A DNA stretch of 64,000 nucleotides from the NCBI RefSeq assembly GCF_900475275.1, contig NZ_LS483364.1, positions 682,001-746,000 on the forward strand, written 5' to 3'. Made by a program: the position numbers and the translations under genes. Positions within the stretch are counted from its first letter, which is position 1. Each line of letters opens with the position of its first letter. Origin of the DNA: Streptococcus sanguinis (GTDB taxonomy: Bacteria > Bacillota > Bacilli > Lactobacillales > Streptococcaceae). The notes beneath the pieces are model-generated. The model searched no databases. It was given only the letters and a program-made list of their open reading frames with translations, and was not told the origin of the DNA. Below are positions 14,891-38,633 of this stretch, piece by piece.

Positions 14891-14964
14891 TGACAAAATT
14901 GTAAGAATAAAACTAGCAAATGAAAGGTTAGGTTATGGTACCGGCCTTTCTTTTTTATTATCAT
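14891..14964 (+). promoter_or_regulatory. BceR-type compound promoter, site A (traX)
   Basis: TGACAAAATTGTAAG (14891-14905), AATGAAAG (14919-14926), TTATGG (14933-14938), exactly 20 nt, then TATCAT (14959-14964). It shares its order and spacing with four other sites in the window and lies upstream of the TraX-family gene. Confidence 0.75.
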
Positions 14965-14994
14965 AGAGGCAAGAAATAAGAAGGAGACAGAAAA

Positions 14995-15750
14995 ATGAAA
15001 TCAAAAGGTATAAATGCTTTTCAGTTGAAGCTCTTCATGGCATTTCTTATGGTTTTTGACCACATCAGCCAGATACCGGGGCTGGTGCCGGATGGCTGGG
15101 ATGGCATCTTGCATGCCCTAACTCGCTGTGTCGGAGCAGCATTTGCCTTCATGGCAGTGGAAGGCTTTCTCCACACTCGCAACCGTCTGGCTTACAATAT
15201 GCGGCTCTTCTTTTGGGCAGCCCTGATGCAGACAGGAAACTGTATCCTGACGCTTCTCTTTCAGGAGAAGGGCATTTACCTCACTCACAACATCTTCCTG
15301 ACCTTGGCCTGCGGGGTCCTCATGCTGAGTCTTTTCTTTGGCTTTTCTGACAATGGCGGAGCTGCTAAGGATAGGAAGTCTGGTTTGCGGATAGCGGCAG
15401 GAGTATTAGTCTTGCTGGCCGGGCTTCTCTTTAGCGAAGGCGGCATGGCTCTGCTTCCTTTCATGCTCTTGACCTACCTTTTTAGAAATCAAGTCTTTTT
15501 CAGAAACTTGTTTTATGTAGTTTGGGCGGGAGTTCTCTTTGCCATGAGTATTCAAATTTATCCAACCTTGCAGGACACGCTATCAATGCTGCTCTATAAT
15601 TCAGACTGGCTCTTTATCAGTGCTCTTCCTCTCTTGCACTTCTATAATGGTGAGCGAGGATCCAGCAGCAAGTGGAGCAAATATTTCTTCTATATTTTCT
15701 ATCCAGCCCACCTTTGGCTAATTGCTTTGATTGCCTTTTGTGTAAAATAA
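14995..15750 (+). CDS. TraX-family integral membrane protein
   Basis: A 251-residue polytopic membrane protein (about seven or eight segments) with the TraX-family N-terminus (INAFQLKLFMAFLMVFDHI) and the TRCVGAAFAFMAVEGFLHTRN motif. The family is related to acyltransferase-like membrane proteins; F-plasmid TraX acetylates pilin. Here it has its own BceR-type promoter and sits between the sensor operon and bceAB, so a modification of envelope components during peptide-antibiotic stress is plausible (inference). AAGGAGACAG precedes the ATG. Confidence 0.85.
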   Translation: MKSKGINAFQLKLFMAFLMVFDHISQIPGLVPDGWDGILHALTRCVGAAFAFMAVEGFLHTRNRLAYNMRLFFWAALMQTGNCILTLLFQEKGIYLTHNIFLTLACGVLMLSLFFGFSDNGGAAKDRKSGLRIAAGVLVLLAGLLFSEGGMALLPFMLLTYLFRNQVFFRNLFYVVWAGVLFAMSIQIYPTLQDTLSMLLYNSDWLFISALPLLHFYNGERGSSSKWSKYFFYIFYPAHLWLIALIAFCVK

Positions 15751-15763
15751 AGCCCATCTCATC

Positions 15764-15836
15764 TTACAAAAGTGTAAGATTGCACTTTAAAATGTAAGCT
15801 TAGGTTATGGCAGGGTGGTTGGTATTGAGATAAAAT
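15764..15836 (+). promoter_or_regulatory. BceR-type compound promoter, site B (bceAB copy 1)
   Basis: TTACAAAAGTGTAAG (15764-15778), AATGTAAG (15791-15798), TTATGG (15805-15810), 20 nt, TAAAAT (15831-15836). It lies 83 nt before the first BceA-type ATPase gene. Confidence 0.8.
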
Positions 15837-15919
15837 AGACTTATCAATTAGGAGGCAGTTCATAAATACTGCTAAAAGCAGGGCTTTGATAGGTGCCTGC
15901 TAGACAGAAAGGAAGCAAG

Positions 15920-16699
15920 ATGACATTATTAGACGTACAGCACGTGAAAAAGATTTATAAAACCCGCTTTCAGGGCAGCCAAGTAGAGGCACTGAAGGAC
16001 ATTCACTTTACAGTAGAAAAAGGCGAATATGTCGCCATCATGGGTGAGTCAGGCTCTGGGAAATCCACCCTGCTCAACATCCTAGCCATGCTGGACAAGC
16101 CAACTGAGGGCCGCGTCTTTCTCAACGGAACTGACACGGCAACCATCAAAAACAGTCAGGCTTCCAGCTTCCGTAGGGAGAAATTAGGTTTTGTCTTTCA
16201 GGATTTCAATCTGCTGGATACCCTGTCGGTCAAGGATAATATTCTCCTGCCACTGGTGCTCTCTCGCCGTCCCATTACCGAGATGATGCAAAAGCTGGTC
16301 ACAACCTGCAACGAGCTGGGGATTAACAAGCTGCAAGAGAAGTTTCCTTATGAGATTTCCGGTGGCCAGAAGCAACGGGTTGCAGTAGCTCGAGCCATCA
16401 TCACAGATCCTGAGATTCTGCTGGCGGATGAGCCGACGGGAGCCTTGGATTCCAAATCTTCAGCAGCCCTGTTGGATGTCTTTGACGACATCAATGCCCG
16501 CGGTCAAACCATTCTCATGGTGACCCACTCAACTGCAGCGGCTAGCCGGGCCAAGCGGGTGCTCTTTATCAAGGATGGGATTCTCTACAACCAAATCTTC
16601 CGTGGTGACAAGACCGAGCGGCAGATGTTCCAAGAGATTTCTGATACTCTGACAGTTATGGCAAGTGAGGTGGGCAATTATGTTCAAACTAACGAGTAA
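15920..16699 (+). CDS. BceA-type ABC transporter ATP-binding protein, copy 1
   Basis: A 259-residue ATPase of the MacB/LolD-like branch used by peptide-antibiotic exporters. Walker A is GESGSGKST, the signature motif ISGGQKQRVAVARAI, and Walker B ILLADEPTGALD. The start at 15920 follows AAAGGAAGCAAG. Its last 20 nt overlap bceB. It is nearly identical to the copy at 33907, differing mainly at one Thr/Ile and in the final residues (GNYVQTNE here, KD there). Confidence 0.93.
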   Translation: MTLLDVQHVKKIYKTRFQGSQVEALKDIHFTVEKGEYVAIMGESGSGKSTLLNILAMLDKPTEGRVFLNGTDTATIKNSQASSFRREKLGFVFQDFNLLDTLSVKDNILLPLVLSRRPITEMMQKLVTTCNELGINKLQEKFPYEISGGQKQRVAVARAIITDPEILLADEPTGALDSKSSAALLDVFDDINARGQTILMVTHSTAAASRAKRVLFIKDGILYNQIFRGDKTERQMFQEISDTLTVMASEVGNYVQTNE

Positions 16700-18680
16700 A
16701 CTAGCTTTGTCCAATCTGGTTAAAAATCGCAGTTTGTATTATCCATTTGCTTTGGCGACGGTACTTGCAACAGCAATTTTGTATAGTTTTGTCTCACTAG
16801 CTTATAGCCCCAATATGGAGACCTCTTATGGCGGTTCGGCAGCTCGCATGACCTTGCAGTTTGGCATTCATGTCATTCAGATTGCCGTCCTTATCCTCAT
16901 TACCTATGCTAATAGCTTCGTCATGAAAAACCGCTCCCGAGAGTTGGGAGTCTATAGTCTGTTGGGCATGGAGAAAAAGCATCTGCTAGTCATGACCTTC
17001 TTTGAACTCTGTGTTTTTTATCTAGCTACAGTTGGTCTGGGTATCTTGTCTGGCCTAGCTTTAGATAAGATGCTCTACGTAGTTCTTTTGAAATTGATGG
17101 GAATGCCGGCAGTTCTTGCCTCAACCTTCCAATGGCAGAATGTCTGGATGACTCTAGCTAGTCTGGGTGTTGCTTTTGCGGTGATTTTGTTGCTCAACTC
17201 TACGCGCCTTCTACGCTATAGCTCTCTTAACCTAATGAAAGAAAAGAAAGCAGGCGAGAAGAAGGGACGATTCCTTTTTCTGCAAACCTTGCTGGGTCTC
17301 CTGCTCATGGGTGTGGCTTATTATATGGCTTTGACCGTTACCAAGCCTGTCGCTGCTATCGGCAATTTCTTTATAGCTGTGATCATGGTTATCCTAGCAA
17401 CCTATCTGCTTTTTAATGCAGGGTCAATTACACTATTGAAATTTCTCAAAAAGCGCAAAGGCTACTACTATAAAACGCAGAATTTCATTTCTGTTTCCAA
17501 TCTCATCTCGCGGATGCGTAAAAATGCAGCAGGATTGGCAACTATCTCCATTCTATCTACCATGCTCCTTGTGACTCTGGTAGGTACAATCAATATCTAT
17601 GTTGGAGGTCAGGATTATATTACTACCTTGCATCCGAAGGATTATAATGTCAGTATCGTCTTGCCGAAATCGACCGATCAGAAGGAGGCTTTGTTGGACA
17701 AGGTTCAGCAAGTGGCTCAGGACTCAGGTCTGAAGAAGCCAAGCTATACTACCTATCTCTACCAATCAGCCTTCATTACGAAACTGGCTGGTAATGATGT
17801 GACAGTTCCAATGCAAAGAGAGCTGGAGTCGGATACAAGTATCTTGACCAAGTCTGCCGGCACGATTACAGTTATCAATCGTCAGGATTATGAAAAAATG
17901 ACAGGGGAAAAGATAGACTTGGCAGACGATGAAACCCTAGTTTACGGGAAAAATATTTCCTTAAACAAGGACAAGCCACTCCGAGTGAATGGCAAGGACT
18001 GGAAGATTAAGCAGCTTTTATCGTCAAATTTCACGCATGGGGAAATCCCTAATCCAAACGATGTAACCATGGAACAGGGGCTCTATATGGTGGTCAATGA
18101 TAGCAAAGAGGTTAATCTCGATGTGGATCATTTCTACTACATTGGAGTTGCTTCAGAGACTAAGGGCAGTAAAAAGTTTGTCGAGCAAGTCCAACTGGGG
18201 TTGAGGGACACTTTGGATCAGGAACAAGCTCAAGATGGTAGCTTCGCAATGGCTAGTGACCGTTATAGTGCAGAAAAGAGCTATCAAGAACTTACTGGAA
18301 CTTTGCTCTTCATTGGTGTCTTCCTCTCCGTTATCTTCCTTCTAGGAGCCGTTCTCGTGATTTACTATAAGCAAATCTCTGAAGGCTATGAAGACCGAGA
18401 TGGCTTTATCATCTTGCAAAAAGTTGGTTTAGATGAAAAGCAGACTAGAAGTACCATTCGCAAGCAGATTTTGACTGTTTTCTTCCTACCTCTCATCTTT
18501 GCTTTTCTACATGTAGCAGCGGTCTTTCACATGTTGCGCTTGATAGTTGCCCTACTAGGTGTGACCAATCTTCCTCTTTTGATTCAGACAACACTTGCAA
18601 CTTGCGGAGTCTTCCTCCTGACCTATATTTTAGTTTTCTTACTGACTTCACGCAGTTACCGCAAGATTGTCGCCCGCTAA
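16680..18680 (+). CDS. BceB-type ABC transporter permease, copy 1
   Basis: A 666-residue permease of the FtsX/BceB family. It has about ten membrane segments, with a large extracellular domain (about residues 310-530) between segments 7 and 8 that normally recognises bacitracin or lantibiotic complexes and signals to BceS. The conserved C-terminal segment YYKQISEGYEDRDGFIILQKVG is present. The true start is the ATG at 16680, overlapping bceA by 20 nt. A strong terminator follows. The sensory domain is quite different from that of the second copy, implying a different ligand. Confidence 0.92.
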   Translation: MFKLTSKLALSNLVKNRSLYYPFALATVLATAILYSFVSLAYSPNMETSYGGSAARMTLQFGIHVIQIAVLILITYANSFVMKNRSRELGVYSLLGMEKKHLLVMTFFELCVFYLATVGLGILSGLALDKMLYVVLLKLMGMPAVLASTFQWQNVWMTLASLGVAFAVILLLNSTRLLRYSSLNLMKEKKAGEKKGRFLFLQTLLGLLLMGVAYYMALTVTKPVAAIGNFFIAVIMVILATYLLFNAGSITLLKFLKKRKGYYYKTQNFISVSNLISRMRKNAAGLATISILSTMLLVTLVGTINIYVGGQDYITTLHPKDYNVSIVLPKSTDQKEALLDKVQQVAQDSGLKKPSYTTYLYQSAFITKLAGNDVTVPMQRELESDTSILTKSAGTITVINRQDYEKMTGEKIDLADDETLVYGKNISLNKDKPLRVNGKDWKIKQLLSSNFTHGEIPNPNDVTMEQGLYMVVNDSKEVNLDVDHFYYIGVASETKGSKKFVEQVQLGLRDTLDQEQAQDGSFAMASDRYSAEKSYQELTGTLLFIGVFLSVIFLLGAVLVIYYKQISEGYEDRDGFIILQKVGLDEKQTRSTIRKQILTVFFLPLIFAFLHVAAVFHMLRLIVALLGVTNLPLLIQTTLATCGVFLLTYILVFLLTSRSYRKIVAR

Positions 18681-18684
18681 GAGC

Positions 18685-18714
18685 AAATCCCCGACCAGAG
18701 GTCGGGGATTTTTT
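18685..18714 (+). terminator. Terminator of bceAB copy 1
   Basis: AAATCCCCGACC pairs perfectly with GGTCGGGGATTT around AGA, followed by T residues. Confidence 0.92.
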
Positions 18715-18830
18715 GATGTCTGGATTTTCACCTCTCATCTCCCTCGTTTTACCGCTTGTCCAAAAAGCCGAGATTTTTCAAAAAAGACTTGCTATCATAG
18801 TCTCAGAAGTAAAGAAAAGGAGAAAAGATC

Positions 18831-19697
18831 ATGTTAGTAGAAACGAAAAATCTTAGCAAGGTTTATGGCGATAAGGTGGCAGTTAATGATCTGAATATTC
18901 AGATTGAGAGAGGTAGTTTTACAGCTATTCTAGGCCCTAATGGCGCAGGTAAGTCTACGACTATCCAGATGCTGATAGGTCTCTTGCGGCCGACATCCGG
19001 GCAGATTTGCTATGCTGAAAAGCTTAAGTTGGGTGTGGTTTTCCAAAACAGTGTGTTGGACGCCCGGCTGACAGTTTTGGAAAATCTGACTATCAGAGCC
19101 AAGCAGTACAAGGAGATGCCGACAGGTAGAATCGAGCGCTTGGTCTCTCAGCTGGGCTTGTCAGCCTTTGCCAAGCAGCCTTATGGGACACTTTCTGGCG
19201 GCCAAAAGCGTCGGGTGGACATTGCTCGAGCCCTGCTCAATAGTCCCGACCTGCTTTTTTTAGATGAGCCTACGACAGGACTGGACATTCAGACTCGGGA
19301 GAGTATCTGGAGCCTGCTCAAGCAGATTCAGAAAGAAGAGCAGATGACCATTGTCTTGACAACCCACTATCTCAATGAAGCTGATGATGCAGATAAGATC
19401 TATATCGTAGATCATGGTCAGGTCATTGCCCAAGGCTCTGCAGACCAGATTAAGGGAAACTATGCCCGCAATGTCTTACGGATTTTAAGTCAAGATGCAG
19501 CAAGTTTAGAGAAAAGCTTGCCAAGAGGCTGCGCTTGGGAGCAAGTCAAGGAAGGGGAATTTATCCTCCACCCTAAAACGACTCAAGAAGCTCTGACCTT
19601 ACTGGCTCAGGCTGGTCCCTATATCGAACAATTTGAATTCCAACCCGGAACTATGGACGATGCCTTTATGGCACTGACAGGAAGAGAGGTACGCTAA
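18831..19697 (+). CDS. ABC-2 type transporter, ATP-binding protein
   Basis: A 288-residue ATPase of the drug-exporter (DrrA/CcmA-like) class: Walker A GPNGAGKST, signature LSGGQKRRVDIARAL, Walker B LLFLDEPTTGLD, then a C-terminal extension of about 70 residues. It is 1 nt from the permease gene. The context with LytTR and DUF3021 genes resembles LytTR-controlled exporter cassettes of streptococci. The substrate is not evident. A GAAAAGGAGAAAAG site precedes the ATG. Confidence 0.9.
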   Translation: MLVETKNLSKVYGDKVAVNDLNIQIERGSFTAILGPNGAGKSTTIQMLIGLLRPTSGQICYAEKLKLGVVFQNSVLDARLTVLENLTIRAKQYKEMPTGRIERLVSQLGLSAFAKQPYGTLSGGQKRRVDIARALLNSPDLLFLDEPTTGLDIQTRESIWSLLKQIQKEEQMTIVLTTHYLNEADDADKIYIVDHGQVIAQGSADQIKGNYARNVLRILSQDAASLEKSLPRGCAWEQVKEGEFILHPKTTQEALTLLAQAGPYIEQFEFQPGTMDDAFMALTGREVR

Positions 19698-19698
19698 T

Positions 19699-20544
19699 AT
19701 GCTCGCTTTGATAAAACGTAATTTTTTACTTTATTTCCGCAACCGCAGTGGGGTAATTTTGTCCCTCTTCGGAGCCATTATTCCCTTTGTGCTTTATATC
19801 GTTTTTTTGAAAAATAATTACAAAGACCATTCCAGCCAGCTGATGGACTTGTGGCTGATTGGCGGCGTGTTGGCAGTTACAGGATTAACGACCACATTGG
19901 CAGCTTTCTCCCGGCAGGTCGAAGACTGGGAGCGGAAGGTGACAGACGACCTCTTTATCACAGACTTGGGACCATGGGGCTTGCAGCTTAGTTATCTTGT
20001 CAGCTCTGTTATTATCGGCTTTTTGATGCAGGTCATTATGTTTGCCTTTATGCTCAGCTATTTTACGCTAGCGGATAACATTTCCTTTGAGTGGGGAATC
20101 CTTCCTTACCTGGTTCTTCTGATGCTCTTAAATAGCCTCTTGGCCACACTGATAAATGCTCTGATTGTTCAATGCTTCAAATCAGTGGATAGTTTAGGGA
20201 AATTGGCGACAGTAGTTGGAGCAACTTCTGGTTTTCTAGTGGGTACCTATATCCCCATTGGAACCTTGCCGAATATGGCGCAAAACCTGATGAAGCTTAC
20301 GCCTTCTAACTACATGGCATCTCTTTTCAGACAGGTTCTCATGAAAGAAAGTCTAGCAGATACTTTTGCTAATAGCAGCCAGTCACAAGCAGCTTTTGAA
20401 AAAACAATGGGAATTCGCATTGAATGGCAGGAGCTCTTGACAAGGACAGAAACTTTCTATATAGTTGGAATAGTTTTAGTTGCAATAGCGCTTATTTGGA
20501 TGGTGCAAAATATAATTGCCATCCGCCGGCTGAAACTACAATAG
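19699..20544 (+). CDS. ABC-2 type transporter permease
   Basis: A 281-residue permease with six membrane segments and the ABC-2 family motif VGTYIPIGTLPNMAQ between segments 5 and 6. A periplasm-facing loop of about 60 residues lies before the last segment. It works with the ATPase encoded just upstream, probably exporting a peptide, lipid or drug. Function is assigned by family and pairing only. Confidence 0.88.
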   Translation: MLALIKRNFLLYFRNRSGVILSLFGAIIPFVLYIVFLKNNYKDHSSQLMDLWLIGGVLAVTGLTTTLAAFSRQVEDWERKVTDDLFITDLGPWGLQLSYLVSSVIIGFLMQVIMFAFMLSYFTLADNISFEWGILPYLVLLMLLNSLLATLINALIVQCFKSVDSLGKLATVVGATSGFLVGTYIPIGTLPNMAQNLMKLTPSNYMASLFRQVLMKESLADTFANSSQSQAAFEKTMGIRIEWQELLTRTETFYIVGIVLVAIALIWMVQNIIAIRRLKLQ

Positions 20545-27681: not shown

Positions 27682-27764
27682 GGCACTGACAAGATGGGGA
27701 AGCTCAGTTAGTATACAATTACATTGTACATTTAAAACTGAATATTGTGAGAAAGGAAAATTGC

Positions 27765-30700
27765 ATGAACAAAAGGATTAGAGCATTGCTCCACCTTATT
27801 ATTCTTTGTTTAGGAGTCATTTTGCCATCAGTAGCTCCTCTTACTCAGGTGCAAGCAGCTGAGTTTGGTGATGTTATCACTGAGATGAGCCTGAAGAACT
27901 CTTCAGGTGGTGATTTGACGCAGGGAATTGATATTTGGGAAACTTTTCGAGTTTACGCAAAGTTTGTCTTGCCGGATAACCAAGTACATCAAGGAGATAC
28001 GACAAAAATCACCTTGCCCTCTGAGTATGCTTTTGGGAACTCTTCAGCTATTGAACTTAAGGACAGCTCAGATAACGTAGTGGCAAATGGATTTTTGGAT
28101 TCAACCAACAAGACCATTACTTTGACCTATACAAATTATGTTGAGCAAAAGTCTGGTGTTCAAGGAGAATTCTTCTTCTATGCACGAGTTGACCATGATG
28201 TTGTGAGACAAGAAGGTGACTTGAATGGTGGATTTACCGTAGGAGGTCGGATGTTGTATCCGGGAATCGTCCATTATAATGGACCACCCAAAAGATATGA
28301 CTCAAAAATTGAGAAGAGCTCTTATCAGGCAGCAGAAGACGGTAAGAACGAGGTTCATTACAATATTGCGATTAACCGCAATATGGAGCATTATACCGGA
28401 GTAACGATAACTGACAAAATTACCTCGCCTAATTTTAAAATCATGAGAGACTCAATTCGGGTCTATAAAATTGCTTGGCGCTGGAATAATGGAGATTGGG
28501 TGCGGGATTCAACAGAAGACGTGACAGCTAATTTCCAATCAAAAATCACAGAGAATGCTGCTGGTGATGGATTCACGATTGACCTTGGCGACATGGATGG
28601 TTTCGGGTATTTGCTGGACTATAAGACAAAAGCAGATTACGATCTAGTTGATGGTGAGCGCGTTTCCAACAGTGCTACCATGACCTATAATGGTGGTCAA
28701 ACAACGACATCATCTGAAAATCGTTCTTATCAGATTGCAGGCGGTGTTGGAGAAGGCTATGTTTTCACCATTAAGCTCCATAAGGTTAATGAAAATGGTG
28801 AGGACCTGCAAGGTGCAGAATTTGAAGTTGTTCGTGATCGGAGCGGAGCAGTTGTCGGAAAATTAACTACAGATTCTAACGGGAATGCCAACTTGGGTGA
28901 CTTGTTGCGCGATGATTATACCATCCGTGAAGTGACTCCTCCTACAGGATATGATAAATTAACTGAGGAAATTAAGATTGGTTCCCAGGATTTTGGAACA
29001 GACAAATCTGTATCGCGCGAGATCGTCAATAAGAAGACGGTAACCGAGCAGGATGTAACTTTCAAAAAAGTAGATCCAAACGGGAAAGAAATTCCTGGTG
29101 CGCAACTGAAAATCTATAAAGGTGATCATGTTGATCAGGAAGAAGCTCCTGTTGCAGACTGGACTTCTGAGGCTGACACTTCTAAAGTCATAAAATTGTC
29201 TCCAGGAACCTATACACTGACTGAAGCTAACGCTCCTGCTGGTTATCAATATGTAGAAGATATCACATTTACAGTAGGCGATAATGGTACTGTTGCTCTT
29301 GTGAAAAAAGGAGCAGAAGATACTGTTCAAGCAGCGGGCTCAATTCTGACGATTACCGACAAGGAGGATAATAGTCCTAAAGCCATTACCTTTAGTAAGG
29401 TCAACCTAGGCGGTACAGAAATTGCTGGCGCTCAAATTAAGATTTTCAAGGGCAACAAAGCGCAGGGTCAAGCAGTAGAAAGCTGGACTTCCGAAGCTAA
29501 TCAGTCTAAAGAAATCAATTTGGAGCCTGGTATTTACACCTTCCATGAGGAAGCAGCTCCAACTGGTTACCTGAAAGTAACCGACATCACTTTCCAAGTC
29601 AAACATGACGGCACAGTGGAAGTGACCAATGTCGGCGAGAAAGACTCTAAAGGTGAAAACAACAAGGTTGTGACTGACGGAGCAACTTTGAAGGTAACAG
29701 ACAAGGATGACGACTCAGAACGTGATGTGACGATCAAGAAAGTAGATCCAAACGGGAAGGAAATCCCAGGGGCGAAATTGAAACTCTACAAAGGCAGTCG
29801 GATTCGTCCTGAAGCTAAACCTCTTGCAGAGTGGACTTCCGAAGCCAACGCATCTAAGGTGGTTAAGTTAGCTCCAGGGACCTATTCTCTGAAAGAAAGC
29901 CTTGCTCCTGCTGGATTTGTAGCTGTAGAAGATATTAAGTTCACAGTTCATTTTGATGGTACCATTACAGTTGATGCTAAAGGTGCAACAGATTCTGTTG
30001 AAGCAAATGGCTTGGTTCTTACTGTAACCGATAAAGAGGACAATAGTCTGAAAGCCATTACTTTCAGTAAGGTCAACCTCGGCGGTACTGAGATTGCTGG
30101 CGCAGAGATTAAGATCTACAAGGGAGACAAAGCTGAAGGTGCAGCCGTTGAAAGCTGGACTTCCGAGGCTAATCAGTCTAAGGACATCAACTTAGCACCT
30201 GGCACTTACACTTTCCATGAGGAAGCCGCACCAACAGGTTACCTCAAAGTAACCGACATCACTTTCCAAGTCAAAACAGACGGAACAGTGGAAGTGACAA
30301 ACGTTGGTGAGAAAGACGCTAAGGGTGAATCTAACACCGTTGCGACCCATGGAGCAACACTGACAGTAACGGATAAAGATGATGACCTACCGCGTAAGGT
30401 AACCTTCAGTAAGGTCAGTCTTGGCGGTACTGAAATCGCAGGTGCAGAGATTAAGATCTACAAAGGCGATAAAGCTGAAGGCCAAGCTGTAGAAAGCTGG
30501 ACTTCAGAAGCTGGCAAGTCCAAAGACCTTAACTTGGCACCAGGTACTTATACCTTCCATGAGGAAGCGGCCCCAACGGGTTACCTCAAAGTGACTGACA
30601 TCACTTTCCAAGTCAAAACAGACGGTACAGTGGAAGTGACCAATGTCGGCGAGAAGGACGCTAAGGGTGAAGACAACAAGGTCGTAACCAACGGCTCAAC

Positions 30701-33326
30701 TGTTACAGTAACGGATAAAGATGATGACCTACCGCGTAAGATTACCTTCAGTAAGGTCAACCTTGGTGGAACTGAAATCGCAGAAGCTCAAATCAAGATT
30801 TACAAGGGCGATAAAGCTGAAGGTACAGCCGTAGAAAGCTGGACTTCAGAAGCTGGTAAGTCTAAAGACCTTAACTTGGCACCTGGCACTTACACCTTCC
30901 ATGAGGAAGCAGCCCCAACCGGCTACCTCAAAGTAACGGACATCACCTTCCAAGTCAAGCATGACGGCACAGTAGAAGTGACCAATGTTGGTGAGAAGGA
31001 CGCTAAGGGTGAATCTAACACCGTAGCAACAAATGGTTCAACTGTTACGGTGACTGACAAGGACGACGATCTTCCACGTAAGGTGACCTTCAGTAAGGTC
31101 AACCTCGGCGGTACTGAAATCGCTGGTGCTCAGATCAAAATCTACAAGGGCGACAAGGCAGAAGGCAATCCAGTAGAAAGCTGGACATCTGAAGCTGGTA
31201 AGTCTAAAGAATTGAACTTGACTCCTGGTACTTATACTTTCCATGAAGAAGCAGCCCCAACCGGCTACCTCAAAGTAACGGACATCACCTTCCAAGTTAA
31301 ACATGACGGTACAGTGGAAGTGACCAATGTCGGCGAGAAAGACGCTAAGGGTGAAGAGAACAAGGTCGTAACAAACGGTTCAACTGTTACAGTGACTGAC
31401 AAGGATGATGATCTCCCACGTAAGATTACCTTCAGCAAGGTCAACCTCGGCGGTACTGAAATTGCCGGTGCTGAAATCAAGATTTACAAGGGCGAGAAAG
31501 CTGAAGGTACAGCCGTTGAAAGCTGGACATCTGAAGCTAATCAGTCTAAGGACATCAACTTGGCACCTGGCACTTACACCTTCCATGAGGAAGCAGCCCC
31601 AACCGGCTACCTCAAAGTGACCGACATCACCTTCCAAGTCAAGCATGATGGCAAAGTGAAAGTGACCAATGTCGGCGAGAAAGACGCTAAGGGTGAAGAC
31701 AACAAGGTCGTAACCAACGGCTCAACTGTTACAGTAACGGATAAAGACGATGATAGTCCAAAAGCTATTACTTTCAGTAAAGTTAACCTTGGTGGAACTG
31801 AAATCGCAGGAGCTCAAATCAAGATCTACAAGGGCGACAAGGCAGAAGGCAATCCAGTAGAAAGCTGGACATCTGAAGCTGGTAAGTCTAAAGAATTGAA
31901 CTTGACTCCTGGTACTTATACTTTCCATGAGGAAGCCGCACCAACCGGCTACCTCAAAGTAACCGACATCACCTTCCAAGTCAAAACAGACGGTACAGTG
32001 GAAGTGACTAGCGTAGGAGAAAAAGATTCTAAGGGTGAAGAAAACAAGGTCATAGCTAATGGTTCTAAAGTTACTGTAACGGATAAAGACGATGACAGTC
32101 CCAAGACTATTACTTTCAGTAAAGTTAATCTCGGCGGTACTGAAATCGCAGGTGCAAAGATCAAGATCTACAAGGGCGACAAGGCAGAAGGCCAAACAGT
32201 AGAAAGCTGGACATCCGAAGCTGGTAAGTCTAAAGATATAAACTTGGCACCAGGTACTTACACCTTCCATGAGGAAGCGGCTCCAACGGGTTACCTCAAA
32301 GTAACAGACATTACTTTCCAAGTGAACCATGATGGTACAGTGAAAGTGACCAATGTCGGAGAGAAAGACTCTAAGGGTGAAGAAAACAAGGTTGTAACCG
32401 ATGGTTCTAAAGTGACTATTACCGATAAGGATGACGACCTTCCACGTAAGGTAACCTTCAGTAAGGTCAACTTAGGCGGTACTGAGATTGCTGGTGCTGA
32501 AATCAAGATTTACAAGGGCGAGAAAGCTGAAGGAAACGCAGTCGAAAGCTGGACATCCGAAGCTGGTAAGTCTAAAGAATTGAACTTGACTCCAGGTACT
32601 TATACTTTCCATGAGGAAGCAGCCCCAACGGGTTACCTCAAAGTAACCGACATCACTTTCCAAGTCAAACAAGACGGCACAGTGGAAGTGACAAACGTTG
32701 GCGAGAAAGACTCCAAGGGTGAAGAGAACAAGGTCGTAACAAACGGCTCAACTGTTACAGTAACGGATAAGGACGATAATCTTCCACGTAAGGTAACCTT
32801 CAGTAAGGTCAACCTCGGTGGTACAGAAATTGCTGGTGCAGAGATTCAAATTTTCCAAGGCAAAGAGGCAACTGGCAATCCTGTAGCAAAATGGACTTCA
32901 GAAGCAAATACATCGCATGAGCTTGGATTAGCTCCTGGAGTATATACCTTCCATGAAGCTGCAGCCCCAACCGGTTACCTAGCTGTTACCGACATTGTGT
33001 TCCAAGTGAATCTCGATGGCACAGTAACAGTTGTAAATGCTGACGGAAATACAGTAGAATACAAGGATGGGACGTTAGTCGTAACTGACCAAACGAAACC
33101 GACTGGCCCAGACAAGGATCCGTCTAAAAAAACAGATGAACCAGATCCGAAAAAATCAAATCAAGATAAACCAATAGAAAAAGACCAAGATAAACCTGGA
33201 GATAAGGGGAAGACGAAGAAAGTTCTGCCTTTCACAGGTACAGAAATCAGCTTTACGCTACTTGCTTTCGGTCTGATTCTGATAGTTGGTTGTGGGGTTT
33301 ATTTCGGGATTCGTTTCAAAAAATAA
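27765..33326 (+). CDS. Giant LPXTG adhesin with twelve Cna-B repeats
   Basis: A 1853-residue surface protein: signal peptide (about 1-37, ending VQAA), a Cna-A-like region homologous to the short adhesin (about 38-330), one SpaA/Cna-B domain (about 335-428, GAEFEVV, PPTGYD), then twelve tandem B repeats from residue 430, a Lys/Asp/Pro-rich wall spacer and the sorting signal LPFTG, a hydrophobic helix and a RFKK tail. Most repeats are 114 residues; the first and third are 110 and of a different subtype (KKVDPNGKEIPGA). Each has Lys (FSKVN), Glu (FHEEAAP) and terminal Asp (VTDKD), fitting Lys-Asp isopeptide stabilisation. The start at 27765 follows AAAGGA. It probably projects an adhesion head on a rigid stalk anchored by sortase A. 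Confidence 0.93.
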   Translation: MNKRIRALLHLIILCLGVILPSVAPLTQVQAAEFGDVITEMSLKNSSGGDLTQGIDIWETFRVYAKFVLPDNQVHQGDTTKITLPSEYAFGNSSAIELKDSSDNVVANGFLDSTNKTITLTYTNYVEQKSGVQGEFFFYARVDHDVVRQEGDLNGGFTVGGRMLYPGIVHYNGPPKRYDSKIEKSSYQAAEDGKNEVHYNIAINRNMEHYTGVTITDKITSPNFKIMRDSIRVYKIAWRWNNGDWVRDSTEDVTANFQSKITENAAGDGFTIDLGDMDGFGYLLDYKTKADYDLVDGERVSNSATMTYNGGQTTTSSENRSYQIAGGVGEGYVFTIKLHKVNENGEDLQGAEFEVVRDRSGAVVGKLTTDSNGNANLGDLLRDDYTIREVTPPTGYDKLTEEIKIGSQDFGTDKSVSREIVNKKTVTEQDVTFKKVDPNGKEIPGAQLKIYKGDHVDQEEAPVADWTSEADTSKVIKLSPGTYTLTEANAPAGYQYVEDITFTVGDNGTVALVKKGAEDTVQAAGSILTITDKEDNSPKAITFSKVNLGGTEIAGAQIKIFKGNKAQGQAVESWTSEANQSKEINLEPGIYTFHEEAAPTGYLKVTDITFQVKHDGTVEVTNVGEKDSKGENNKVVTDGATLKVTDKDDDSERDVTIKKVDPNGKEIPGAKLKLYKGSRIRPEAKPLAEWTSEANASKVVKLAPGTYSLKESLAPAGFVAVEDIKFTVHFDGTITVDAKGATDSVEANGLVLTVTDKEDNSLKAITFSKVNLGGTEIAGAEIKIYKGDKAEGAAVESWTSEANQSKDINLAPGTYTFHEEAAPTGYLKVTDITFQVKTDGTVEVTNVGEKDAKGESNTVATHGATLTVTDKDDDLPRKVTFSKVSLGGTEIAGAEIKIYKGDKAEGQAVESWTSEAGKSKDLNLAPGTYTFHEEAAPTGYLKVTDITFQVKTDGTVEVTNVGEKDAKGEDNKVVTNGSTVTVTDKDDDLPRKITFSKVNLGGTEIAEAQIKIYKGDKAEGTAVESWTSEAGKSKDLNLAPGTYTFHEEAAPTGYLKVTDITFQVKHDGTVEVTNVGEKDAKGESNTVATNGSTVTVTDKDDDLPRKVTFSKVNLGGTEIAGAQIKIYKGDKAEGNPVESWTSEAGKSKELNLTPGTYTFHEEAAPTGYLKVTDITFQVKHDGTVEVTNVGEKDAKGEENKVVTNGSTVTVTDKDDDLPRKITFSKVNLGGTEIAGAEIKIYKGEKAEGTAVESWTSEANQSKDINLAPGTYTFHEEAAPTGYLKVTDITFQVKHDGKVKVTNVGEKDAKGEDNKVVTNGSTVTVTDKDDDSPKAITFSKVNLGGTEIAGAQIKIYKGDKAEGNPVESWTSEAGKSKELNLTPGTYTFHEEAAPTGYLKVTDITFQVKTDGTVEVTSVGEKDSKGEENKVIANGSKVTVTDKDDDSPKTITFSKVNLGGTEIAGAKIKIYKGDKAEGQTVESWTSEAGKSKDINLAPGTYTFHEEAAPTGYLKVTDITFQVNHDGTVKVTNVGEKDSKGEENKVVTDGSKVTITDKDDDLPRKVTFSKVNLGGTEIAGAEIKIYKGEKAEGNAVESWTSEAGKSKELNLTPGTYTFHEEAAPTGYLKVTDITFQVKQDGTVEVTNVGEKDSKGEENKVVTNGSTVTVTDKDDNLPRKVTFSKVNLGGTEIAGAEIQIFQGKEATGNPVAKWTSEANTSHELGLAPGVYTFHEAAAPTGYLAVTDIVFQVNLDGTVTVVNADGNTVEYKDGTLVVTDQTKPTGPDKDPSKKTDEPDPKKSNQDKPIEKDQDKPGDKGKTKKVLPFTGTEISFTLLAFGLILIVGCGVYFGIRFKK
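29052..33083 (+). repeat. Tandem array of twelve 330/342-bp repeats in the large adhesin
   Basis: Unit starts are 29052, 29382, 29724, 30054, 30396, 30738, 31080, 31422, 31764, 32106, 32448 and 32790. Units 1 and 3 are 330 bp (subtype A); units 2 and 4-11 are 342 bp (subtype B); unit 12 is a shorter, divergent B unit. Units 4-11 are highly alike at the DNA level, so unit number is likely to vary by recombination or replication slippage. Confidence 0.93.
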
Positions 33327-33331: not shown

Positions 33332-33367
33332 AAAACAAGTGTCAATGAACGTTGACGCTTGTTTTTT
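33332..33367 (+). terminator. Terminator of the large adhesin gene
   Basis: AAAACAAGTGTCAA pairs with TTGACGCTTGTTTT (one G-T pair) around a 6-nt loop, followed by T residues. Confidence 0.9.
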
Positions 33368-33454
33368 ATGTGCTTGATGAAAGAAGCCGATAGTTATCGT
33401 TGAATTTAGGCCTATTGATGCAGTTTAAGGGCAATCGAAAACTATTTTTCTAAG

Positions 33455-33527
33455 TGACAAAAATGTAAGTTTAAAGGCTAAAATGAAAGGTTATCTTATG
33501 GCAGCTAGCCTGGGAATCCGGTATCCT
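33455..33527 (+). promoter_or_regulatory. BceR-type compound promoter, site C (43-aa peptide gene)
   Basis: TGACAAAAATGTAAG (33455-33469), AATGAAAG (33482-33489), TTATGG (33496-33501), 20 nt, TATCCT (33522-33527). It is 70 nt before the small ORF. Confidence 0.75.
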
Positions 33528-33596
33528 ATAAGTGTAAAGAAAAAGAAGATAACTATCTTCCAAACTAATAATCAGATTTCAAGAAGGAGGCCCGCT

Positions 33597-33728
33597 ATGA
33601 AAATCAATCTTTTTAACCATCGCCAAAGTAAACCTAAAGCTCAAAAGATTTCCAAGGAAGAAATCGAGAAGACTCGTCTAGGCTGTGCTTCCAGTCAATA
33701 TTATTTCTGGCTGCAGTACAGTCACTGA
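33597..33728 (+). CDS. Unrecognised 43-residue basic/aromatic peptide under a BceR-type promoter
   Basis: A 43-residue ORF starting at the ATG at 33597, with an excellent AAGGAGG 5 nt upstream. I do not recognise it. The N-terminal two thirds is basic and hydrophilic (MKINLFNHRQSKPKAQK...), followed by a KEEIEKTRLG turn and an unusually aromatic end with a single Cys (GCASSQYYFWLQYSH). It has no signal peptide or double-glycine motif. It has its own compound promoter and lies just before bceAB copy 2, so it may be induced by the same antibiotic signal. An in-frame extension to 33483 runs through the promoter and was rejected. Confidence 0.65.
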   Translation: MKINLFNHRQSKPKAQKISKEEIEKTRLGCASSQYYFWLQYSH

Positions 33729-33745
33729 GAGTTTCCAGTATTCAA

Positions 33746-33782
33746 GGATAAGAGAAAGGTCGGTTGACTTTTCTCTTTATCC
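33746..33782 (+). other. Hairpin after the 43-aa peptide gene
   Basis: GGATAAGAGAAAG pairs with CTTTTCTCTTTATCC with two single-base bulges. No T-run follows, so it may be a weak terminator or an mRNA 3' stabilising stem. Confidence 0.45.
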
Positions 33783-33798
33783 GACTTGGAGCACAAGA

Positions 33799-33871
33799 TG
33801 ACAAAAATGTAAGATTGGCAGGCAAAATGAAAGATTAGGTTATGGAAACTTGTCTGTCTTTCCGGTATGAT
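33799..33871 (+). promoter_or_regulatory. BceR-type compound promoter, site D (bceAB copy 2)
   Basis: TGACAAAAATGTAAG (33799-33813), AATGAAAG (33826-33833), TTATGG (33840-33845), 20 nt, TATGAT (33866-33871), 35 nt before the second BceA gene. Confidence 0.8.
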
Positions 33872-33906
33872 AGTAGTATCAAGTTAAATAAAGAAGAGGT
33901 TCGAGT

Positions 33907-34668
33907 ATGACATTATTAGACGTACAGCACGTGAAAAAGATTTATAAAACCCGCTTTCAGGGCAGTCAAGTAGAGGCATTGAAAGACATTCACTTTACGG
34001 TAGAAAAAGGCGAATATGTCGCCATCATGGGGGAGTCGGGCTCCGGGAAATCCACCCTGCTCAACATCCTAGCCATGTTGGACAAGCCGACTGAGGGCCG
34101 CGTCTTTCTCAATGGAATTGACACAGCAACCATCAAAAACAGCCAGGCTTCCAGCTTCCGCCGAGAAAAGCTAGGCTTTGTCTTTCAGGATTTCAACCTG
34201 CTAGATACCCTGTCGGTCAAGGATAATATTCTTCTGCCGCTAGTCCTCTCTCGCCGTCCCATTACCGAGATGATGCAAAAGCTGGTCACGACCTGCAACG
34301 AGCTGGGGATTAACAAGCTGCAAGAGAAGTTTCCTTATGAGATTTCCGGTGGCCAGAAGCAACGGGTTGCAGTAGCTCGAGCCATCATCACAGATCCTGA
34401 GATTCTGCTGGCGGATGAGCCGACGGGAGCCTTGGATTCCAAATCTTCAGCAGCCCTGTTGGATGTCTTTGACGACATCAATGCCCGCGGTCAAACCATT
34501 CTCATGGTGACCCACTCAACGGCAGCGGCTAGCCGGGCCAAGCGGGTGCTCTTTATCAAGGATGGGATTCTCTACAACCAAATCTTCCGTGGTGACAAGA
34601 CCGAGCGGCAGATGTTCCAAGAGATTTCCGATACTCTGACAGTTATGGCAAGTGAGGTGAAGGACTAG
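33907..34668 (+). CDS. BceA-type ABC transporter ATP-binding protein, copy 2
   Basis: A 253-residue ATPase with the same Walker A (GESGSGKST), signature (ISGGQKQRVAVARAI) and Walker B (LLADEPTGALD) as the copy at 15920. DNA identity is near-complete over the last ~370 bp, while the first half shows many synonymous differences, suggesting gene conversion. It ends in SEVKD, and its stop codon overlaps the bceB2 start by 1 nt. Confidence 0.93.
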   Translation: MTLLDVQHVKKIYKTRFQGSQVEALKDIHFTVEKGEYVAIMGESGSGKSTLLNILAMLDKPTEGRVFLNGIDTATIKNSQASSFRREKLGFVFQDFNLLDTLSVKDNILLPLVLSRRPITEMMQKLVTTCNELGINKLQEKFPYEISGGQKQRVAVARAIITDPEILLADEPTGALDSKSSAALLDVFDDINARGQTILMVTHSTAAASRAKRVLFIKDGILYNQIFRGDKTERQMFQEISDTLTVMASEVKD

Positions 34669-36662
34669 TGTTTCGATTAGCAGCAAAATTGGCGGTATCC
34701 AATCTGATTAAGAACCGCCGTCTCTATTATCCTTTTGCACTGGCTACCTGTGTGGCTGTAGCCATTTCTTATATTTTCAACTCCTTGGCTTTTAATCCCA
34801 ATCTATCCAAAATGACAGGTGCCAGCTCTGTTATCCTCGTTTTGGTCCTAGGGGTTGTTATTGTAAACATCACAGCCGGAATTATTGTCTTTTATGCCAA
34901 TCAATTTGTTATGAAGAATCGCTCCAAGGAGCTGGGACTTTATGGCATGCTAGGTCTCAATAAACGTCATCTCTTTGTTATGACTTTTATTGAGCTTCTG
35001 ATTTTCGGGCTAATGGCTGTAATCTTGGGGCTGACTATTGGTGTTCTCTTTGACCAGCTGATTTATGCCTTTTTGCTCAAGCTCATGGGTACCAAGGTGG
35101 TTTTGGTTTCAACTTTCCAGCTACCGGTCTTGATTCTTGTTTTTATTTTCTATGGCTTTATTTTTGCAGGCTTGGTCTTTGTTAATGGTTGGCGAATTCT
35201 GCGTTTTGATTCTCTGAAGATGGCTAAGGAAAAGGCCAGCGGAGAGAAGAAGAGCCGGTTTTTACTGCCACAGACCTTTATTGGCCTGGCGGCTCTGCTC
35301 TACGGCTACTATCTGGCTCAGACTGTGCGTAATCCTATGGAGGCAATCTTCATCTTTTTTGGAGCAGTCCTCTTGGTCATTTTAGGAACATACCTGCTCT
35401 TTAATGCTGGTATTACAGTCTTTCTGCAGCTTCTGCAAAAGAACAAAAAGTATTACTACCAGCCCAATAATATGATTTCCGTCTCAAATCTTATTTACCG
35501 TATGAAGAAAAATGCAGTGGGGCTGGCTACTATTTCCATCCTATCAACAATGGTTCTAGTGACCTTCTCTGCCGGTATGAACATCTATTCTGGCGCGGAA
35601 TTTATGCAGAAACTTATGTTTCCGCATGATTTCTCTATCAATGGCGGTGTGAATGCAAAAAAAGAACAGCTGGATCAGGTCTTGACAGAGTTTGTAGCAG
35701 AGAATCAGCTGAAGGTCAAGCAACAGGAGACCTATCAGTTTTATTCAATGGGTGTCAAGAAGAAAGAGGGTAACAGTCTAGATATTTATCCTAAGGGACA
35801 ATGGACTGTGTCACCTAATACCTATATCTTGATGTTTTCCAGCGAGGATTACGAAAAGCTGACAGGAAAGGATCTATCTTTGCAGGAAAATGAGATTGCC
35901 GTCTTTAACAAGGGGGTGGATCTGGATTATAAGCAACCTCTGCAGCTGGCTGGCCAAAACTTGACGATCAAGACAGTCCTGTCTGAAGATTTTATTTTTC
36001 ACAAGATTCCAGATGAGTATAATATCATCATTCCTAAAGGCCTGTATCTAGTAGCCAAGGATCCTAGTCAACTCTTAGCTCATCAGATGGAGCAGCAAGC
36101 TATTAATCCTGTTCTCTATGGTAGTCTGGATATTGAAGCATCAGAAGATGAAAAGGCTAAGCTGGATACAATCTATCAAAAGAAAATGACGGACTATAAC
36201 CAGTCCCTGCCAGAAGGTGCCGGAGGTGTCCACGGTCAAACTGGTGTGATTGGCATACTTGAAATTAAGGGTATGCTAGGTGGTGTCTTCTTTATAGGGA
36301 TTTTCCTCTCTATTGTCTTCATGATGGGAACAGTGCTGGTTATCTACTACAAGCAGATTTCCGAAGGTTACGAAGACCGTGATCGCTTCATCATCCTGCA
36401 GAAAGTCGGCTTAGACGAGCAACAGACTAGAAAGACCATTCGTAAACAAGTACAGACTGTCTTCTTCCTGCCCCTAATCTTTGCTTTCCTTCATTTGGCT
36501 TTTGCCTATCATATGCTCAGTCTCATTTTACAGATGTTGGGCGTGCTCAACGCAAGTCTTATGTTAGTGGTGACTCTGAGGGTTTGCGCTCTGTTTATTG
36601 CAGTATATGTCGGTGTCTTTCTCATTACTTCTCGCAGCTATCGCAAAATTGTGGCCATGTGA
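34668..36662 (+). CDS. BceB-type ABC transporter permease, copy 2
   Basis: A 664-residue FtsX/BceB-family permease with about ten membrane segments and a large extracellular domain (about residues 310-530). It starts with GTG overlapping the bceA2 stop. The membrane parts and the C-terminal YYKQISEGYEDRDRFIILQKVG are similar to copy 1, but the extracellular domain is much less alike, so the two transporters probably handle different peptide antibiotics or divide sensing and detoxification. A terminator follows. Confidence 0.92.
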   Translation: MFRLAAKLAVSNLIKNRRLYYPFALATCVAVAISYIFNSLAFNPNLSKMTGASSVILVLVLGVVIVNITAGIIVFYANQFVMKNRSKELGLYGMLGLNKRHLFVMTFIELLIFGLMAVILGLTIGVLFDQLIYAFLLKLMGTKVVLVSTFQLPVLILVFIFYGFIFAGLVFVNGWRILRFDSLKMAKEKASGEKKSRFLLPQTFIGLAALLYGYYLAQTVRNPMEAIFIFFGAVLLVILGTYLLFNAGITVFLQLLQKNKKYYYQPNNMISVSNLIYRMKKNAVGLATISILSTMVLVTFSAGMNIYSGAEFMQKLMFPHDFSINGGVNAKKEQLDQVLTEFVAENQLKVKQQETYQFYSMGVKKKEGNSLDIYPKGQWTVSPNTYILMFSSEDYEKLTGKDLSLQENEIAVFNKGVDLDYKQPLQLAGQNLTIKTVLSEDFIFHKIPDEYNIIIPKGLYLVAKDPSQLLAHQMEQQAINPVLYGSLDIEASEDEKAKLDTIYQKKMTDYNQSLPEGAGGVHGQTGVIGILEIKGMLGGVFFIGIFLSIVFMMGTVLVIYYKQISEGYEDRDRFIILQKVGLDEQQTRKTIRKQVQTVFFLPLIFAFLHLAFAYHMLSLILQMLGVLNASLMLVVTLRVCALFIAVYVGVFLITSRSYRKIVAM

Positions 36663-36707
36663 TAGTAGAGACAGGCTTCATATACCTTTCATCTATTTTA
36701 AAGACTT

Positions 36708-36735
36708 AGGCTGAGATTTTTCTCAGCCTTTCTTT
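36708..36735 (+). terminator. Terminator of bceAB copy 2
   Basis: AGGCTGAGA (36708-36716) pairs perfectly with TCTCAGCCT (36721-36729) around TTTT, followed by TTCTTTTC. Confidence 0.88.
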
Positions 36736-36818
36736 TCGGTAAATTTCTGAGAAGGATTCCTAAAAGGGAGGAAATATGATAAAATAGGGCGTTAATGCAA
36801 TTAGGAGAATAAGAATAG

Positions 36819-38219
36819 ATGAATATATTTAGAAAAAAAGATGCTAGCAAGGACAGAACGGGCATGCGCCGTCACTTGAAAATTCCAGATCTGATTTTGC
36901 TTGGTATTGGAGCCATGGTAGGAACTGGGATTTTCACCATCACAGGGACCGGGGCGGCCAAATATGCTGGGCCTGCTCTGACTGTTTCGATTGTCATTTC
37001 AGCGCTTTGTGTGAGTATTTCGGCCCTTTTTTACGCTGAGTTTGCCTCACGGATTCCGGCCAATGGCGGAGCTTACAGTTATATTTATGCTGTTCTGGGA
37101 GAATTTCCTGCTTGGCTGGCTGGCTGGCTGACCATCATGGAGTTCATGACCGCTATCTCAGGTGTTGCCTCTGGCTGGGGCTCTTATCTGAAAGGATTGC
37201 TCAGCGGCTTTGGTATCCAGCTGCCGGCAGCCCTGAATGGCACTTTCAATCCCAAAGCAGGTACTTATGTGGACTTGCTGCCCATTCTGGTCTTGGCCTT
37301 TGTTACGGGAGTTGTCCTTTTGAACTCCAAGGCAGCCCTGCGCTTCAACTCAGCCTTGGTAGTCTTGAAATTCTCAGCCTTGGCGCTCTTTATCATTGCA
37401 GGATTTTTCTTCATCAAACCAGAAAATTGGTCTAACTTTGCACCTTTTGGCTTTGGAGAAATTTATGGCGGCAAGGTCGGCATTATGGCTGGGGCTTCAC
37501 TCATGTTCTTTGCCTTTCTTGGCTTTGAGTCCATTTCCATGGCGGTCGATGAAATTAAGGAGCCCCAAAAGAATGTTCCGCGCGGGATTGTTTTGTCCTT
37601 GAGCATTGTGACCATTCTCTATATTTTGGTGACCTTGGTCTTGACTGGGATTGTCCACTATAGCAAGCTGGATGTCTCAGATGCGGTGGCCTTTGCCCTG
37701 CGCAGCGTCGGACTTGGTTGGGCAGCTAACTATATCTCTGTCGTCGCTATTTTGACACTGATTACGGTCTGCATCTCCATGACCTACGCCTTGTCGCGGA
37801 TGATTTACAGTATTGCGCGTGATGGGCTCTTGCCTGGCTCTTTCAAGAAATTGACAGAGATCAGTCGGGTGCCAAAGAATGCCACGATTTTAGTAGGGAT
37901 TGCCTCAGCTGTTTGTGCAGGTATTTTCCCCTTGGCTAGCATCGCCTCTTTCCTTAATATCTGTACCTTGGCCTATCTGATTTTATTGGCACTTGCTGTC
38001 TTGAAATTGCGGAAAGATCAAGGAATGCCGAAAGCAGGAGAATTCAAAACGCCTCTGGTACCTCTGACACCGATTTTATCCATTATCATCTGCCTGTCCT
38101 TCATGACCCAGTATACCAAGGAAACCTGGCAAGCCTTTGGAATTGCCCTAGCGTTGGGAAGTCTCATCTATGCCTTCTATGGCTATAGAAACTCAGAAAT
38201 CGCTGTAAAAGAGGAGTAG
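36819..38219 (+). CDS. APC-superfamily amino-acid permease (cationic amino acid transporter-like)
   Basis: A 466-residue permease with twelve membrane segments. The N-terminal LLGIGAMVGTGIFTITGTGAA motif is the substrate-binding unwound helix of APC transporters, and FLGFESISMAVDEIKEPQKNVPRGI matches the CAT/YfnA group. It probably imports or exchanges amino acids; the specific substrate cannot be read from sequence. It follows the bceB2 terminator with its own -10 (TATGATAAAAT). Confidence 0.88.
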   Translation: MNIFRKKDASKDRTGMRRHLKIPDLILLGIGAMVGTGIFTITGTGAAKYAGPALTVSIVISALCVSISALFYAEFASRIPANGGAYSYIYAVLGEFPAWLAGWLTIMEFMTAISGVASGWGSYLKGLLSGFGIQLPAALNGTFNPKAGTYVDLLPILVLAFVTGVVLLNSKAALRFNSALVVLKFSALALFIIAGFFFIKPENWSNFAPFGFGEIYGGKVGIMAGASLMFFAFLGFESISMAVDEIKEPQKNVPRGIVLSLSIVTILYILVTLVLTGIVHYSKLDVSDAVAFALRSVGLGWAANYISVVAILTLITVCISMTYALSRMIYSIARDGLLPGSFKKLTEISRVPKNATILVGIASAVCAGIFPLASIASFLNICTLAYLILLALAVLKLRKDQGMPKAGEFKTPLVPLTPILSIIICLSFMTQYTKETWQAFGIALALGSLIYAFYGYRNSEIAVKEE

Positions 38220-38262
38220 GGATAAAGTATTGATATTAAAGAGAAAGAAGAAATAGAAAAGA

Positions 38263-38532
38263 ATGAAAAAACTTAACCTAACCCAAAAGAAGAAAATCTG
38301 GCTCTTTGCCCTTGCTTTTATCGCCCTGATCTTATTGGCGATTGTGATTAATATTCAGCTGAACCAGCCTGAAGATATGCATGCTGATTATGTTCGGCTT
38401 TGGAAGTCAAGGTGGCATGAGGAAAATAAAGACTGGCTCTATCCACTGAAAAATATCTGTCTTGTTATTCTGGCAGTTCTAGCTGGGTCTGGTTTGATGA
38501 TTGCATGTTCCAAGAGTGAGAGATGGAAATAG
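38263..38532 (+). CDS. Small two-helix membrane protein
   Basis: An 89-residue protein with a basic N-terminus, one helix at about 12-32, an extracellular loop rich in Trp and charged residues (VRLWKSRWHEENKDWLYP), and a second helix at about 62-82. I do not recognise it. The ribosome binding site is weak (GAAAGAAGAAAT). It lies 43 nt after the permease gene and may be co-transcribed with it. Confidence 0.6.
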   Translation: MKKLNLTQKKKIWLFALAFIALILLAIVINIQLNQPEDMHADYVRLWKSRWHEENKDWLYPLKNICLVILAVLAGSGLMIACSKSERWK

Positions 38533-38559
38533 GCTTCTGTAGATTTAAATGAAATCATC

Positions 38560-38633
38560 TTACAAAAATGTAAGATTAACGATAATAAATGTAAGGTAGA
38601 GACATGGAAAACGTGTCTCTATTTTGCTATAAT
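38560..38633 (+). promoter_or_regulatory. BceR-type compound promoter, site E (S41 peptidase gene)
   Basis: TTACAAAAATGTAAG (38560-38574), AATGTAAG (38588-38595), ACATGG (38602-38607), 20 nt, TATAAT (38628-38633). It is the strongest inverted repeat (TTACA-N4-TGTAA) and has the best -10 of the five sites. Confidence 0.75.

Follow-up and report, generated by a model that had tools for sequence, protein, structure and literature searches.

What links the genes that stand behind repeated copies of one compound promoter in a 64,000-nucleotide (nt) stretch of the Streptococcus sanguinis genome (contig NZ_LS483364.1, positions 682,001 to 746,000; hereafter the window), which also encodes a BceRS two-component pair? 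The window holds five such copies and the genome holds a sixth, and their sequences make it very probable that all six are promoters of a single regulon governed by the response regulator BceR. The kind of regulon, its core operator and the link with the transporter genes bceAB are already known from published work; the wider promoter syntax with two linker classes, a hairpin embedded in the promoter, a copy facing gor and a family of small peptides go beyond it. The promoter copies apparently switch on defences against cell-wall antibiotics, and promoters of this kind recur across Firmicutes.

The five window copies, all recovered in half-motif searches of the genome, begin with TKACAAAANTGTAAG at 14891, 15764, 33455, 33799 and 38560, exactly the bases at which an earlier reading made from the sequence alone (the sequence-only reading) had placed them:

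14891..14964, plus strand: promoter 1, before traX
15764..15836, plus strand: promoter 2, before bceA1B1; stable hairpin absent
33455..33527, plus strand: promoter 3, before a gene for a peptide of 43 amino acids (aa); stable hairpin absent
33799..33871, plus strand: promoter 4, before bceA2B2; hairpin not clear (z score -1.4)
38560..38633, plus strand: promoter 5, before an S41 peptidase gene

Each TKACAAAANTGTAAG is followed by 13-14 nt, ATGWAAG (equivalently, 12-13 nt to AATGWAAG), 8 nt, ATGG, 20 nt and TANNNT, giving the measured syntax TKACA-N4-TGTAAG, N13-14, ATGWAAG, N8, ATGG, N20, TANNNT. The length of the main linker is the only distance that varies among the window sites, and it does so by 1 nt; the sequences of the linkers, the N8 and the spacers vary between copies, whereas boxes and distances are constant. 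The invariant 20-nt gap proposed in the sequence-only reading was seen at all five sites and again at the sixth, and its TTATGG-like box does lie at a fixed place but is better written ATGG, site 5 reading ACATGG. ATGWAAG, present in six of six sites of this genome, resembles an additional operator half-site and is treated here as the putative secondary half-site.

Searched by itself against the entire 2.33-Mb genome, a check that had been proposed with the original reading, the upstream half-motif gave six exact matches, five of them the sites named above, and the downstream half by itself (AATGWAAG-N8-ATGG-N20-TANNNT) led to the identical six places. The sixth copy, at G000:C1:817560 outside the window, had been missed; it has the full syntax, including the 20-nt gap. 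With up to two mismatches the downstream half gave 7 and 9 matches on the two strands against 8 and 6 for the reversed control, so that background starts at one to two mismatches. Chance was set aside as an explanation, since the half-motif searches each give six sites and the reversed control had no match in 147 Streptococcus genomes. An ordinary -35 box was also set aside, on a standard sigma-70 scan of 14400-16000 that gave no prediction at promoter 1 and, at promoter 2, a single one: ATGGCA with a spacer of 18 nt.

The presumed regulator and its kinase lie upstream of promoter 1, and Pfam domains bear out the assignment of this pair to 12804-14454:

12804..13490, plus strand: response regulator, BceR-type, OmpR family (Pfam Response_reg and Trans_reg_C; start at 12774 in the list of open reading frames, ORFs)
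13474..14454, plus strand: histidine kinase, BceS-type (HATPase_c; hydropathy)

The best solved relatives of the regulator are 5dcm/5dcl (E-value 2e-49), which we take to be S. agalactiae NsrR, a BceR-type regulator. By hydropathy the kinase has two nearly contiguous hydrophobic stretches within residues 13-66 and no sensor domain, and it was the single BceS match at E<=1e-20 in this genome.

Of the 147 Streptococcus genomes, 107 have a BceS-type kinase at roughly 45% identity or above, and 102 of these carry the promoter in at least one of its three forms; the 40 others, which had remote BceS matches or none, all lack it. Long-linker sites as described above were present in 37 genomes, short-linker sites in 16 and sites with a TTGTAAG half-site in 52, and reversed controls gave zero matches in each of these searches. 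In the short form operator and half-site are closer by 9-10 bp, roughly a turn of the helix. Each genome that has this form has a single copy, its best kinase is 45-53% identical and the long form is absent, and in all 16 genomes the copy lies no more than 69 nt from the kinase match. Two linker classes that differ by roughly a helical turn lend themselves to testing a model in which BceR activates from two sites. We also fetched 27 loci via kinase position or peptide, so that ATGG and the -10 were not part of the query. Sixteen had operator, half-site and -10, and in 15 of these ATGG stood at the same place; 7 of the 16 were near-identical copies forming one group, and the other 11 loci had no such site. 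The retention of ATGG, together with the spacing, supports the activator-dependent, rigid promoter that had been proposed.

When the pattern without its -10 was scanned over species-level genomes, at least 120 stretches were returned, and the taxa and counts given here refer to the matches listed, the taxa being a sample: Streptococcus, Lachnospiraceae, Oscillospiraceae, Clostridium, Acetobacterium and Fredinandcohnia. Although the query held no -10, TANNNT stood at +20 in 88 of 122 sites and at +21 in the remaining 34. A BceB-like gene lay downstream on the same strand at 85 of the 102 sites with at least 1.5 kb of downstream sequence, and a BceS-like gene (E<=1e-25) within 1.3 kb upstream at 72 of 122; genes beside the sites were called by a longest-ORF rule. 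A syntax this strict lets BceR regulons be read from sequence across many Firmicutes and points to targets beyond ordinary annotation, such as a small peptide family near the transporter and a possible RNA directed at gor.

Several observations weigh against a single BceR regulon. The 17 remaining sites of the 102 have no BceB-like gene downstream: four face gor, two precede an S41 peptidase gene and one (L075) shares its promoter with a TraX-family gene elsewhere, which leaves 10 with no assigned target. Five of the 107 kinase-positive genomes lack all three promoter patterns; two of these (L242 and L244) hold near-variants and L241 shows none. The genomes compared are related, and the p-values of the co-occurrence, linker-class and hairpin tests are inflated as a result.

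If the regulon is as proposed, peptide antibiotics binding lipid-II-cycle intermediates would be perceived by way of BceAB, and BceS would then phosphorylate BceR. TKACA-N4-TGTAA, centred near -73, would be occupied by a BceR dimer. Roughly two turns of the helix further on, facing the same side of the DNA, a second BceR would contact the half-site ATGWAAG (near -51 to -45); from there BceR would bring RNA polymerase to a promoter that has ATGG in its -35 region, near -36 to -33, and a -10 at a fixed distance. Predicted to be under this control are both BceAB transporters, the TraX-family membrane protein, a peptidase of the nisin-resistance-protein (NSR) type, the small peptide and an RNA transcribed toward the 3' end of gor. 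At upstream genes that end nearby, a hairpin and T-run often present within the promoter would serve as terminator.

The sixth promoter aims at the 3' end of gor, on the opposite strand, and the gene was identified by NCBIfam as encoding glutathione-disulfide reductase. Promoters so placed were found, with boxes and -10 intact, in 15 loci from 13 distinct genomes, S. sanguinis included:

L006; L195, L197, L199, L205, L206, L212, L222, L225, L229 and L230
L054, L064, L072 and L092 (L054 and L092 being contigs of L222 and L225)

Target types were read largely from chosen loci, 38 stretches having been picked by hand from 20 of the 37 long-linker genomes, and their counts are not a survey. The end of gor lies 64-104 nt past the ATGG box in nine of ten stretches and 370 nt past it in L206. 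The gene on the other side of the promoter falls into three homologue groups and two singletons (one of them only a 134-aa ORF), and this variety makes gor the constant partner. In S. sanguinis a weak hairpin (z -1.2, matched by 28 of 200 shuffles) and a T-run follow the promoter within about 50 nt, so that either a very short RNA or, via read-through, a gor antisense may be made; in this region a terminator scan and Rfam each reported zero matches. We put a functional gor-directed transcript at slightly below an even chance. The rival view, under which the copy would be vestigial or would drive some small gene as yet unrecognised instead of gor, is about evenly poised: the RNA might stop short of gor at the hairpin, and the stretch between promoter and gor is not conserved and is without an Rfam match, yet 13 genomes have intact boxes and -10, and the gene across the promoter from gor is of at least four kinds.

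A further feature, overlooked in the original account of the promoter layout, is a covarying hairpin with a T-run that many copies hold inside the promoter itself. It is clear at two of the window sites:

14922..14956, plus strand: promoter 1, internal hairpin followed by six T (folding energy -12.4 kcal/mol, z -3.3); putative terminator of an NrdI-like gene
38591..38627, plus strand: promoter 5, internal hairpin of 16 bp (folding energy -22.3 kcal/mol, z -9.2), stem and T-run; putative terminator of an 89-aa gene

Promoters 2, 3 and 4 have no clear hairpin (z 0.9, 0.1 and -1.4). Clostridial copies often have GGGAAATG across the end of the linker and the half-site, with CATTTCCC and then T in the spacer; streptococci pair other arms, for instance GAAAGG with CCTTTC-TTTTTT at promoter 1. 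To count sites only once, any lying within 12 mismatches of one already kept was dropped, which reduced 128 sites to 81 for stem length, 128 to 92 for folding energy and 206 to 111 for stem plus T-run. True partners gave longer stems than swapped spacers (6.17 versus 4.82, standard deviation (sd) 0.10) and lower folding energies (-13.6 versus -9.2, sd 0.3). Of 111 sites, 40 had a stem with a T-run, where swapped spacers gave 13.2 (sd 2.6); a laxer rule counted 37 among 92, the swapped spacers giving 24.3 (sd 2.6). In the 111-site set, from which sites near the end of a locus were omitted and in which L303 contains N, stem and T-run were present at 28 of the 45 sites with a co-directional gene end within 30 nt versus 12 of 63 others, three sites without an upstream gene being in neither group.

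On these pairing and gene-order comparisons, the promoter is likely to incorporate, in the form of the hairpin and T-run, an intrinsic terminator that serves the upstream gene. Some findings run counter to this: promoter 2 lacks a hairpin with its upstream gene only 13 nt away, as does L214 (5 nt); stems with an A-run, in reverse orientation, are also above control (15 versus 4.0); and gene order is partly confounded with taxonomy in the comparison. The hairpin could instead arise simply from composition, purine-rich linkers lying opposite pyrimidine-rich spacers, or be a feature of promoter DNA, and not a terminator. Composition by itself does yield stems, as the swapped spacers demonstrate, the reverse-orientation forms point the same way, and a consensus terminator scan (loop limit 8) reported none at promoter 1. 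This explanation is nonetheless somewhat unlikely, given that real partners pair better than swapped ones, that clostridial and streptococcal copies build the same hairpin from different arms, and that it is commoner where a co-directional upstream gene ends close by.

Should the hairpin indeed act as a terminator, the promoter, itself dependent on an activator, would also end transcription of its own sensor operon, and such a composite promoter-terminator would insulate the resistance operon from read-through. Only tentatively do we suggest the full combination, in which BceR promoters are often composite promoter-terminators of about 60 bp that end the upstream operon, often that of the kinase, as well as starting the induced one, and streptococcal BceR in addition uses a conserved promoter opposed to gor to make an RNA that retunes glutathione reductase under lipid-II antibiotic stress. 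In Bacillus subtilis, BceR promoters reportedly have an inverted-repeat main site and a weaker downstream site ahead of the core promoter; we know of no fixed ATGG, paired linker classes or embedded hairpin described for them.

The open-licence literature searched, mainly passages without supplementary files, contained neither an embedded terminator nor a gor-facing promoter. The closest known system is TCS01 (BceRS) with BceAB of S. pneumoniae, which likewise has a BceR-type regulator and TNACA-N4-TGTAA before bceAB; passages of two accounts place the operator motif at six of six regulated operons (PMC9020739; PMC11034029). The operator before bceAB in S. sanguinis matches the consensus quoted in the passages of PMC9020739. 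Those same passages of the pneumococcal accounts do not describe the ATGWAAG half-site, the ATGG box, the fixed -10 distance or the hairpin, and they name pavB and the rtg operon but not gor, TraX or NSR as members of the regulon (PMC9020739; PMC11034029). An antisense RNA specific to the pneumococcal regulator is mentioned, its target unnamed in the text of the passages (PMC11034029). For S. agalactiae, the corresponding passages do not describe the promoter syntax or a gor-directed promoter; gor, mentioned once in the text, is not named in them as a target, and TraX is absent from that text (PMC11502775).

Such work bears on whether another OmpR-family regulator might control the sites, with BceR a bystander or a cross-talk partner. 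Operators of OmpR-family members look alike, and BceR binding here is a prediction from sequence; we nevertheless regard this alternative as improbable. The promoter tracks the BceS-type kinase in the 147 genomes, its short-linker sites directly follow the kinase gene, S. sanguinis has one BceS-type kinase, and the purified pneumococcal orthologue is reported in passages of PMC9020739 to shift the bceAB promoter carrying the same operator. The assignment of the operator to a BceR-type regulator, made originally by resemblance, thus gains from the co-occurrence, the BceB linkage, the 5dcm/5dcl relatives and this published shift.

The transporter targets themselves raise the last alternative:

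15920..16699, plus strand: BceA1, ATPase (TIGR03608 at its cut-off)
16680..18680, plus strand: BceB1, permease (FtsX domain; hydropathy)
33907..34668, plus strand: BceA2, ATPase (TIGR03608, 254.4 bits versus a cut-off of 254.85)
34668..36662, plus strand: BceB2, permease (FtsX domain; hydropathy)

To judge from the ATPase family, the FtsX domain and a long loop, bceA1B1 and bceA2B2 are of the BceAB type, the gap between hydrophobic stretches being about 226 residues in BceB1 (309 to 536) and about 220 in BceB2 (304 to 525). BceA1 and BceA2 are identical at 250 of 251 positions and the two permeases at 45%, an apparent gene conversion confined to the ATPase gene. That the promoter copies are alike through recent joint duplication of promoter and transporter, not selection on syntax, is very improbable: the ATPase identity does indicate exchange between the two loci, but linkers, N8 and spacers have diverged among copies with boxes and distances fixed, and the same syntax stands before unrelated genes and in distant taxa.

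Three further genes of the window stand behind the promoter:

14995..15750, plus strand: TraX-family membrane protein (PF05857, E-value 2e-15)
33597..33728, plus strand: 43-aa peptide (relatives beside bceAB in other genomes)
38670..39614, plus strand: S41 peptidase, nisin-resistance-protein type (Peptidase_S41; N-terminal hydrophobic stretch by hydropathy)

traX also stands after the promoter in L193, L209 and L221, and other genomes have the promoter before a second gene of the TraX family (for example L198:1469-2197); a seventh site was absent from S. sanguinis, in which the exact upstream half-motif search gave six only. The surface peptidase of the sequence-only reading is indeed an S41 peptidase, and what had gone unnoticed is its resemblance to nisin-resistance protein: the closest solved structure is 4y68, a putative nisin-resistance protein (E-value 3e-66, residues 27-313). 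In L207 and L213 this promoter likewise stands before relatives with 39-40% identity, and the same permease gene precedes it. We take BceP, an extracellular protease of S. agalactiae, to be the NSR peptidase. A predicted NSR-type peptidase behind this promoter fits the S. agalactiae BceRS regulon, which passages of PMC11502775 give as nine genes including BceAB and BceP.

The 43-aa peptide had zero matches in Pfam, NCBIfam and PADLOC. Relatives were present in eight fetched stretches from seven genomes, the C-terminus YYFWLQYSH being invariant among the close ones. When 295 genomes of the order were searched with a profile, 11 had matches, two strong and nine weak. In seven of the nine weak-match genomes a peptide of 36-37 aa directly follows the promoter in its TTGTAAG form, and the other two weak matches lie outside the genus; a 36-aa relative had zero Pfam matches. 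In both loci read further (L269 and L275) bceA comes after this peptide. The 43-aa peptide thus belongs to a family located between this promoter and bceA, and the 227 bases that separate operator and bceA in the pneumococcus, according to passages of PMC9020739, leave room for a small peptide gene there.

Other genes lie immediately upstream of three of the promoters. Between bceS and promoter 1, at 14466-14846, is an NrdI-like flavodoxin gene that scores under the NCBIfam NrdI cut-off, and L196 and L200 have a similar gene ahead of promoter and peptide. Directly before promoter 5, at 38263-38532, is an 89-aa ORF without a Pfam match. Directly upstream of promoter 3, at 27747-33326, lies an ORF of 1859 codons with SpaA prealbumin-like repeats (13 stretches) and a Big_8 domain, which is probably a surface adhesin.

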